Shown here one piece after another: positions 30,460 to 33,572 of a stretch of 37,821 nucleotides of DNA. The number at the start of each line of letters is the position of its first letter. Within the stretch, counting starts at the first letter, position 1. Source of the DNA: Micropruina sp. Lineage in GTDB: Bacteria > Actinomycetota > Actinomycetes > Propionibacteriales > Propionibacteriaceae. The stretch lies in assembly GCF_027492755.1 (NCBI RefSeq), contig NZ_JAPUED010000207.1, positions 1-37,821 of the forward strand, written 5' to 3'. A model generated the notes under the pieces. It saw nothing but the letters and a program-made list of their open reading frames with translations, did not search any database and was not told the origin of the DNA. Position numbers and translations under genes: made by a program.

Positions 30460-30517
30460 GGGACGGTTCTTTTCGTTCCACCCACAGCAATTCGGTGGAA
30501 CGAAAAGAACCGTCCCC
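30460..30517. repeat. Dispersed palindrome, family A, copy 4
   Basis: Perfect 23-bp arms (30460-30482 and 30494-30516), beginning GGGACGGTTCTTTTCG and ending CGAAAAGAACCGTCCC, surround an 11-base loop. The outer 11 bp are identical to the copies at 4117 and 12682; the inner part differs. It lies between convergent pdxY and the HTH-MurA gene. Confidence 0.85.
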
Positions 30518-30538
30518 GTCGGTCCGGTTGCGGTGTGG

Positions 30539-32059
30539 TCAGTCGCGGAAGACCTCGATCTTGGCGCCCAGGGCGTTGAGCCGGTTCGGCAGGTCCTCGT
30601 AGCCGCGGTTGATCACATAGACGTCGCGCAGCACGCTGGTGCCGCGGGCCGCGAGGGCCGCGAGCAGCAGGCAGACGGCGGGACGTAGGGCCGGGGGAGA
30701 GATGACCTCCTGGCCGCGCCAGCGGGTCGGGCCGGTGACGATGATCCGGTGCGGGTCGAGCAGTTGGACGTTGGCGCCCAGCTTGGTCAGCTCCACCAGG
30801 TGGATGGCCCGGTTCTCGTACACCCAGTCGTGGATCATCGTCCGGCCCTGCGCGACCGCCGCGATCACCGCGAAGAACGGCAGGTTGTCGATGTTCAGGC
30901 CGGGGAACGGCATCGGGTGGATCTTGTCCGAGCTGGCGTGCAACTCCGAGGGGTACACGGTGATGTCGACCAGCCGGGTGTTGCCGTTCTCGGCCGGGTA
31001 CTCCGGTGACAGGTCGAACGACTGACCCATCTCGGCCAGAATCTCCAGTTCGATCTCCAGGAACTCGATCGGGCAGCGCCGGACGGTGAGCTCCGACCCC
31101 GTCACGATGGCCGCGGTGAGCAGGCTCATCGCCTCGATCGGATCCTCGGACGGCGCGAAGGCGATGTCGGTGTCGATCAGCGGCAGTCCGCGCACCCTCA
31201 GGGTGGTCGAGCCGATGCCGTCGACGTGGACGCCGAGCTGCTGCAGGAAGAAGCACAGGTCCTGCACCATGTAGTTGCTGCTGGCGTTGCGGATGACGGT
31301 CTCACCCGGGTGCCGCGCGGCGGCCATCAGGACGTTCTCGGTCACCGTGTCGCCGCGTTCGGTGAGGGTGATCGAGCGGTGCGCGAACGGGTCGATCGGA
31401 GTCACCCGGGCGTGATACGAGCCCTCGGTGGCCTTGATGTCGAGGCCGAAGTGGCGCAACGCCTGCAGATGCGGCGTGACGGTGCGGGTGCCCAGGTTGC
31501 AGCCGCCGGCGTAGGGCAGTTCGAAGGCCTGCTCGTCGTGCAGCAGCGGGCCGAGGAACATGATGATCGAGCGGGTCCTGCGGGCGGCCTCGACGTCCAT
31601 CTTGGAGAGCTCCAACCGGTCCGGGCGGATCAGTTCGAGCTCGGTGCGGTCGTCCGACCAGGTCGCCCTCACCCCGATGCTGGTGAGCACCTCCAGGATC
31701 CGGTTGACCTCCTCGATCTGAGCGATGCCGCGCAGCACCGTGCGACCGCGGTTCAGCAGCGAGGCGCACAACAGTGCGACCGCCGCGTTCTTGGACGACC
31801 GGACCTTGATCGAGCCGCTGAGCGTCGTCTCGCCCTGAATCCGGAGGTGCAGGGCGCCGCTCGTCGTCTGCGGCTGCTCCAGCGCCTCGGCGATCCTGTT
31901 CATCAGGTCGACAGAGAGTTCCCGTTGACCTGCCTCCAGGTCATTGACGGTCTCACGTGAAGTGCCCAGCTCGTCGGCCAACTCCTGTTGAGAGAGCCCG
32001 CGCTGCCTGCGGGCGTCCCGGATCAGGTACCCGACGCTGGTGGGGGAGAGTTCTGTCAC
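30539..32059 (-). CDS. murA: XRE-type HTH fused to a MurA-like enolpyruvyl transferase
   Basis: A 506-aa two-part protein. Residues about 9-60 are an XRE/Cro helix-turn-helix (IRDARRQRGLSQQELADELGTSRETVNDLEAGQREL). Residues about 70-506 are an EPSP-synthase/MurA fold, the first enzyme of peptidoglycan precursor synthesis (enolpyruvate transfer from PEP to UDP-GlcNAc). MurA key positions appear kept: Lys-Asn in VRSSKNAAVALL, the fosfomycin-target Cys in YAGGCNLGTRTV, Asp in FPGLNIDNLPF and Arg in PPALRPAVCLL. GTG 32059 lies six bases after TAAGCT, a leaderless pattern. It diverges from lpdA. A canonical MurA lacks the HTH, so this may be a second MurA with a regulatory role; whether it is catalytic is unproven. 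Confidence 0.85.
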   Translation of the reverse strand: MTELSPTSVGYLIRDARRQRGLSQQELADELGTSRETVNDLEAGQRELSVDLMNRIAEALEQPQTTSGALHLRIQGETTLSGSIKVRSSKNAAVALLCASLLNRGRTVLRGIAQIEEVNRILEVLTSIGVRATWSDDRTELELIRPDRLELSKMDVEAARRTRSIIMFLGPLLHDEQAFELPYAGGCNLGTRTVTPHLQALRHFGLDIKATEGSYHARVTPIDPFAHRSITLTERGDTVTENVLMAAARHPGETVIRNASSNYMVQDLCFFLQQLGVHVDGIGSTTLRVRGLPLIDTDIAFAPSEDPIEAMSLLTAAIVTGSELTVRRCPIEFLEIELEILAEMGQSFDLSPEYPAENGNTRLVDITVYPSELHASSDKIHPMPFPGLNIDNLPFFAVIAAVAQGRTMIHDWVYENRAIHLVELTKLGANVQLLDPHRIIVTGPTRWRGQEVISPPALRPAVCLLLAALAARGTSVLRDVYVINRGYEDLPNRLNALGAKIEVFRD

Positions 32060-32174
32060 CCGGGAAGCTTAAGCCATCAGATCCAGCCTCGACGGCGACT
32101 GTCGTGCGGCAAGGGTGATCACGGGTCGTCCAGCGGGCTGAAAACTGGGGAGGCGGTCCACTAGGGTGCTGCTC

Positions 32175-33572
32175 ATGAGCGCACACTTCGACGTCGTTGT
32201 CCTGGGAGCGGGCCCGGGTGGTTATGTGGCCGCCATTCGCGCCGCGCAGCTTGGCAAGAAAGTAGCCATCATCGAGAAGCAGTGGTGGGGCGGCGTCTGC
32301 CTCAACGTGGGCTGTATTCCGACCAAGTCGCTCCTCCGCAACGCGGAACTGGCGCATATCTTCACCCACGAGAAGGACTCCTTCGGCATCGAGGGCGAGG
32401 TGACTTTCAACTTCGGCAAGGCGTTCTCGCGCAGCCGTGAGGTGTCGAACCGAATGGTCGGCGGCATCCACTACCTGATGAAGAAGAACAAGATCACCGA
32501 ACTCAACGGCTGGGGCACCTTCGTCGACGCGAAGACCATCGAGGTGGCCACCGACTCCGGCACCGAGACGGTCACCTTCGACAACTGCATCATCGCCACC
32601 GGCTCGACCACCCGGATGATCCCCGGCACCTCGCGCAGCGCTCGCGTCTTCACCTATGAGGAGCAGATCCTGGCCGACAACCTGCCGGGTTCGATCATCA
32701 TCTGCGGCTCGGGGGCGATCGGCACCGAGTTCGCCTACGTGCTCGCCAACTACGGCGTGAAGGTGACGATCGTCGAGTTCCTCGACCGGATGGTGCCGCT
32801 GGAAGATCCCGAGATCTCGCGTGAACTGGCCAAGGCTTACAAGAAGCTCGGCGTCGAGGTGCTCACCTCCACCAAGGTGGAGGCGATCCAGGAAACCGAT
32901 TCCGGCGTCCGGGTCACCGTCAGCCCGGCCAAGGGCGGCGAGCAGAAGGTGCTCGAGGCCGACCGGGTGCTGCAGTCCATCGGCTTCGCACCGCGCACCC
33001 AGGGCTACGGCCTGGAGAAGCTCGGCGTCGAACTCACCGAGCGTGGCGCGATCAAGATCGACGACTACATGCGCACCAACGTTCCCGGCATCTACGCGAT
33101 CGGCGACGTCACCATGAAGCTGGCCCTGGCGCACACCGCCGAGGCACAGGGCGTGGTGGCGTCCGAGACCATCGCCGGCGCCGAGACCATGCCGATCAAC
33201 TACGACATGATCCCGCGGGCCACCTACTGCCAGCCGCAGATCGGCTCGTTCGGCTACACCGAAGAACAGGCCAAGGAGCGCGGTTACAACGTCAAGGTCG
33301 CCAAGTTCCCGTTCTCGGCCAACGGCAAGGCGCACGGACTGGGCGACGCGACCGGCTTCGTCAAGCTCGTCGCGGACGCCGAGCACAACGAGATCCTGGG
33401 CGCCCACATGATCGGACCCGACGTCACCGAGCTGCTGCCCGAGCTGACCCTGGCCCAGCAGTGGGATCTGACCGCCGACGAGGTGGGCCGCAACATCCAC
33501 GCCCACCCGACGCTTTCCGAGGCGCTCAAGGAAGCCGTCGAGGGCATCGCCGGACACATGATCAACTTCTGA
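32175..33572 (+). CDS. lpdA: Dihydrolipoyl dehydrogenase
   Basis: A 465-aa flavoprotein disulfide reductase, the E3 of 2-oxoacid dehydrogenase complexes and the glycine cleavage system. FAD-binding [17 protein letters not shown] is followed by the redox disulfide [17 protein letters not shown]-binding [13 protein letters not shown], the second FAD contact GIYAIGDVT and the C-terminal catalytic HAHPTLSEA. Full length. TAGGGT lies seven bases before ATG 32175, pointing to a leaderless transcript. It is divergent from the HTH-MurA gene, with a small GTGATCAC palindrome in the gap (32115-32122). A terminator hairpin follows the stop. Confidence 0.95.

Follow-up and report, generated by a model that had tools for sequence, protein, structure and literature searches.

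Enzymes that share one chain with a DNA-binding domain and control the genes of their own pathway are known as trigger enzymes, among them BirA (biotin ligase and repressor), NadR and PutA. MurA, the fosfomycin target, is the enzyme that commits carbon to cell-wall synthesis. Enzyme/repressor fusions are known already; searches of the open-access literature for a MurA with a helix-turn-helix (HTH), for its autoregulation or operator and for the repeated co-loss of operator and recognition helix gave no description of such a MurA. In Streptomyces coelicolor, SCO5998 (MurA2) is described as one of two UDP-GlcNAc transferases, adjoins the aconitase SCO5999 and is a predicted DmdR1 target (PMC12161575). 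The same gene was reported to be SigB-dependent (PMC8346170). The retrieved portions of these two papers contain no mention of an HTH or of autoregulation of SCO5998.

The analysed DNA, a stretch of 37,821 nucleotides of Micropruina sp. (contig NZ_JAPUED010000207.1 of assembly GCF_027492755.1; hereafter the window), encodes an XRE-HTH/MurA fusion of 506 amino acids at positions 30539–32059 of the minus strand. The nearest named relatives were an uncultured Micropruina MAG (91%) and M. glycogenica NZ_LT985188.1 (88%), and by sequence the window genome belongs to a Micropruina species of the Propionibacteriaceae. The reading frame starts with GTG and has an in-frame stop three codons 5' of it. 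The XRE/Cro-type HTH domain comprises residues 9–60 (31880–32035, minus strand), with the Pfam HTH_3 match at residues 13–60 (4e-14), and the MurA (enolpyruvyl transferase) domain comprises residues 71–506 (30542–31849, minus strand), with the EPSP_synthase match at residues 75–494 (7e-50). The AF2 model built from 55 homologues (pLDDT 88.6, pTM 0.82) contained four HTH helices at residues 6–19, 24–31, 35–42 and 50–61 in addition to the MurA fold. The nearest solved structures were MurAs, and E. coli MurA 1uae was superimposed on the model with a TM-score of 0.93 on the target and an rmsd of 2.7. The first-pass annotation, in which a DNA-binding domain was described as fused to a full MurA domain with its catalytic residues kept, was thus borne out by Pfam, the AF2 model and the residue alignment. 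It had also named an untranslated HTH region as one finding that would speak against the fusion. Full-length homologues aligned starting at residue 1–9, and the HTH codons in Micropruina had dN/dS values of 0.06–0.14, similar to the enzyme domain; the codon statistics rule out an untranslated HTH and indicate that the domain is not simply decaying.

The alignment with E. coli MurA, which the first-pass annotation had proposed as a check, confirmed the catalytic residues. K22, N23, R91, C115, R120, D305, R331, L370, R371 and R397 (E. coli numbering) were identical in 57/57 fusion proteins; at E329, 55 of them had Glu and 2 had Asp. In the window protein the conserved positions are K90-N91, R163, C187, R192, D391, E415, R417, R459 and R485. 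The Arg-Pro pair after the catalytic Cys had been described as altered; this was incorrect for the Arg, since R120 is kept as R192, and correct for the Pro, since P121 is Thr in all 57 proteins. Further replacements, invariant or almost so among the fusions, were L124 to Pro, R232 to Pro and D369 to Pro or Gln. According to the alignment, residues 234–238 of the window protein (31346–31360, minus strand) read ERGDT in place of KVSVG, the E. coli K160–G164 loop, which belongs to the UDP-sugar site; ERGDT was invariant across the fusion family. As judged from these residues, the PEP/catalytic side of the family is conserved and the UDP (nucleotide) side is remodelled. The window protein accordingly has an EPSP-synthase fold nearest to MurA with K22, N23, C115, R120, D305 and R397 conserved, and does not have the UDP-GlcNAc loop. 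The cut-off of the NCBIfam PRK09369 MurA subfamily was exceeded (327 vs 297 bits), and the TIGR01072 murA equivalog cut-off was not reached (310 vs 392.7 bits). On these scores the protein appears to work like MurA, yet it is no equivalog member by TIGR01072. Due to the remodelled loop, the substrate and kinetics could differ from those of standard MurA.

The same alignment included canonical MurAs of Kribbellaceae-like and Actinopolymorphaceae-like genomes (loci L062–L091). Position 115 was Asp in 29/29 of these, as in fosfomycin-resistant MurAs, and Cys in the HTH fusions. In the Actinopolymorphaceae-like loci L062–L069, a third MurA-like gene adjoins the canonical murA in divergent orientation. 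Its score against E. coli MurA was about 200 bits, compared with about 370 for the canonical copy; its residue 115 is Cys, and its catalytic Asp is followed by Trp.

To count the murA genes, TIGR01072 was searched in 117 genomes of the order, all of which were at least 95% complete except the window's own (85%); family names other than that of the window were assigned from named relatives. In the window genome a single EPSP-synthase-fold gene, the fusion, was detected, and it was the only MurA found there. Canonical MurA was not found in 36/36 Propionibacteriaceae and in 33/36 Nocardioidaceae genomes, and it was present beside the fusion in 45/45 genomes of two other families of the order. A second PF00275 protein in the relatives had been considered as a canonical MurA; this was ruled out, as it was AroA at every Propionibacteriaceae and Nocardioidaceae locus checked. 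A murB match was obtained in 33/33 relatives searched. As the only MurA in the Propionibacteriaceae and in most Nocardioidaceae, the fusion should carry the essential activity. The proposed search for the HTH plus EPSP_synthase architecture showed that the fusion, at 60–90% identity with the HTH included, occurs across the class in at least 12 actinobacterial families, either throughout a family or in some of its members; Streptomycetaceae, Streptosporangiaceae and Dermatophilaceae are among them. Other families had canonical MurA alone, with about 31–34% identity, and at E≤1e-70 no match to the fusion was obtained outside the class in a 296-genome sample of the phylum. The HTH-MurA match was split across two reading frames, indicating a frameshift or pseudogene, in one Streptomyces-like (G467:C1:2095149-2096650) and one Dermatophilaceae-like genome (G291:C1:1261861-1263362).

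A candidate operator was found from the upstream sequences of 75 relatives. The palindrome TATCTCAnnnnTGAGATA, usually located 9–16 nt upstream of the fusion start codon, extends over the spacer and two bases into the -10 element in the leaderless-type murA promoter of fusion genes with an intact recognition helix. It was scored over the 14 positions of TATCTCA-n4 (or n2)-TGAGATA, and in the first set of genes it was regarded as present at ≥11/14 (p≤0.01 in shuffles). All 63 genes of this set whose recognition helix matched the family motif had an operator of ≥11/14, and all 13 genes with a diverged helix, the window included, scored ≤9/14. In a second set of 80 named loci, whose genomes partly overlap the first, the operator was present in 70/70 intact-helix genes and absent in 8 diverged ones; two conservative helix variants missed by the first motif (SQSVIGRIE and AQSAVHRIE) both had it. 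Among 40 further Propionibacteriaceae loci, two new losers were detected (L247 and L248) and the operator was clear in nearly all others; in L222, L223, L224, L234 and L258 the best match was weaker or lay farther from the gene. These counts are to be read with the helix motif and the score cut-off chosen after the first data set was seen. In 93/98 genes the final TA of the operator begins a TANNNT hexamer, mostly 6–8 nt before the start codon. A TANNNT hexamer was located 6–8 nt upstream of the start in 15/15 operator-less genes too, which indicates that the promoter was retained and the operator lost. The window gene follows this pattern with a -10 element TAAGCT 6 nt before its start (32066–32071, minus strand). 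In the intergenic region between the fusion and lpdA (32060–32174, minus strand), the expected place of the operator, the palindrome was absent, with the best match of 7/14. When the rest of the window genome was searched for a relocated operator, the best site had 2 mismatches, and this site fronts aconitase.

The loss of the operator was accompanied by changes in the recognition helix. In the window protein the helix region (residues 33–45, TSRETVNDLEAGQ; 31925–31963, minus strand) is acidic and diverged from the consensus TSQSA(V/I)xRIExG. A basic recognition helix in an intact XRE HTH was present in 101/116 family genes and not in the window protein. The net charge of the recognition helix was +1.1 in the 101 intact vs -1.5 in the 15 diverged genes, and that of the HTH domain +0.3 vs -3.8; as these comparisons were made among related genes, their P values serve as a guide only. 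In the tree of the enzyme domain (94 genes), for which conservative variants were allowed in the helix motif and 10/14 was accepted as the lower cut-off for added loci, five helix changes and five operator changes fell on the same five branches with no discordant genes. The loss clades were Micropruina with the window, Propioniciclava, Propionicicella (L061), genus code g28 (L247/L248) and the Dermatophilaceae gene L126. Both features were kept in Micropruina sp. SSC1 (L144), and the loss is therefore recent in the window's genus. The sign test on the loss contrasts gave p=0.25; just three of the five lie on well-supported, independent paths, and with this number the test is underpowered and unable to reach significance. 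The HTH/enzyme ratio of amino-acid divergence was 2.3–2.7-fold in the two larger loser clades (2.3-fold in Micropruina), compared with mostly 0.5–1.3-fold in intact groups and 1.8-fold in intact Dermatophilaceae. The HTH as dead weight in Micropruina was unsupported, because its dN/dS is low despite the 2.3-fold divergence relative to the enzyme domain.

The operator was confined to the fusion gene. In 40 whole genomes, 11 perfect palindromes were detected, one per genome and all at the fusion gene, and 18 of the 20 sites with ≤1 mismatch were located there; the remainder were few scattered 2-mismatch matches. This distribution argues for autoregulation and not for a regulon. Two targets named in the first-pass annotation were dropped. 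Control of other wall genes is unlikely, as the perfect sites all belong to the fusion gene, and the one further 1-mismatch site that was inspected (G021) is within an ORF. The divergent lpdA (dihydrolipoyl dehydrogenase-like by Pfam; 32175–33572, plus strand) is outside the system: it is the neighbour of the fusion in part of one family only, and the operator stays at the murA start where the neighbour gene differs. The broader suggestion that this MurA also controls transcription is well supported for the family, in which the recognition helix and the operator at the fusion's promoter covary, and probably does not apply to the window copy, from which the operator is gone.

Three further elements were observed. 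The divergent lpdA is seemingly leaderless too, with TAGGGT 7 nt before its ATG (window positions 32162–32174). A palindrome that resembles the fusion's operator but is a different one, TATCTCGAyrTCGAGATA, is located directly upstream of or near aconitase genes in Micropruina and Streptomyces-group genomes (L271:1988-2005, in the window's own genome G000:C114:5187-5204; near aconitase also in L272 and L274). An inverted repeat (GGGACGGTTCTTTTCGTTCCACC ... GGTGGAACGAAAAGAACCGTCCCC; 30460–30525) that separates the fusion from the convergent kinase gene is possibly a bidirectional terminator.

Taken from sequence, the likely explanation is a MurA that represses its own gene across its family and whose repressor half has been disarmed in the window's lineage. 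The covariation suggests that the HTH of the fusion binds specifically to the operator at the fusion's promoter, a site private to this gene. An intact-helix protein, e.g. Streptomyces MurA2, would bind the palindrome TATCTCATATCTGAGATA and the Micropruina protein would not. A dimer on the palindrome would block RNA polymerase, resulting in negative feedback on the MurA level. More tentatively, occupancy of the MurA site by UDP-GlcNAc, PEP or UDP-MurNAc may gate DNA binding, which would tie murA transcription to precursor supply. With no operator and an acidic recognition helix in the window's Micropruina clade, the HTH has probably lost this DNA target there, and in the window copy a working enzyme is probably joined to a DNA-binding domain that has been disarmed. 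The HTH might be kept for folding, oligomerisation or a further partner. In the window's lineage the fusion is most plausibly the one MurA, and an essential one.

The position of the palindrome bears on how the bound HTH would act. It could activate, or bind constitutively without sensing, as the operator ends within the -10 element and some spacer-bound regulators activate; however, a palindrome over the spacer and the first two -10 bases is in the usual position of a repressor, and the operator-less lineages keep the same type of -10 and depend, evidently, on their single murA, which fits the loss of a repressor rather than of an activator. We regard activation or ungated binding as rather unlikely. 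That another XRE regulator binds the palindrome while the fused HTH serves something else appears highly improbable: XRE proteins are numerous in such genomes, with several short extra HTH matches per genome, and binding by the fusion is a prediction from sequence, but the site is private to the fusion gene and was lost on the branches where the recognition helix of the fusion diverges. For the window lineage, the HTH may have been rewired to a new, unrelated operator instead of being disarmed. The constraint on the HTH (dN/dS 0.06–0.14 in Micropruina) is in accordance with rewiring, while the acidic helix, the net charge of the HTH (-5 to -6 in those Micropruina proteins for which it was calculated) and four Micropruina upstream regions in which no common palindrome was found by eye are against it, and we consider rewiring unlikely.

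The enzyme half could be an enolpyruvyl transferase for another acceptor, like AroA or NikO, whose acceptor is UMP, or a catalytically idle sensor. The nearly fixed replacements at the UDP-sugar loop (160–164), P121, L124, R232 and D369 and the score under the equivalog cut-off would fit such an enzyme. Against this, the sequence and fold are closest to MurA rather than NikO or AroA, the catalytic residues are conserved, and the fusion is the sole MurA homologue in most genomes of two families that keep murB; a non-MurA function is therefore very unlikely. An enzyme-dead sensor is unlikely because the catalytic residues are invariant and most genomes of these families have no other MurA. Enolpyruvyl transfer to UDP-GlcNAc is inferred from the sole-homologue status of the fusion.

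In the Streptomyces fusion genes fetched, both the helix and the operator were kept. One Streptomyces-group fusion gene was close to aconitase in the neighbourhood examined (L274), as SCO5998 is in the available description, and by this gene neighbourhood SCO5998 is probably a member of the HTH-MurA family. The SigB and DmdR1 reports would then mean that other regulators act on a probable orthologue of the fusion. Propionibacteria were reported to be intrinsically fosfomycin-resistant (PMC3838805, PMC10425813). This is puzzling, as the Cys targeted by fosfomycin is present in the fusion MurA; the reason may be poor uptake or the remodelled site. The sole MurA of the Propionibacteriaceae and most Nocardioidaceae is of a divergent type. 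If true, self-controlled MurA transcription would mean that wall synthesis is wired in a way new to this pathway, and would add a trigger enzyme from the cell wall.

In comparison with MurA as defined by TIGR01072 and PRK09369, the fusion shares the fold and the catalytic K22, N23, R91, C115, R120, D305, R331, R371 and R397, with about 26% identity to E. coli MurA, and differs in the added N-terminal XRE HTH, in ERGDT for KVSVG and in a score below the equivalog cut-off. Streptomyces has a second, canonical MurA besides the fusion, whereas Micropruina does not. With the XRE/Cro-cI autorepressors the family shares the HTH type and a palindromic operator over its own promoter, which was found in the intact-helix relatives and not in the window; in contrast to them, its HTH is joined to an essential enzyme of metabolism. 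As in BirA, NadR and PutA, an enzyme and an HTH are combined on one chain, and the architecture and the predicted operator of the family fit the trigger-enzyme type. The fold and pathway are different from those of BirA, NadR and PutA, and the fusion family has repeatedly lost its repressor half.
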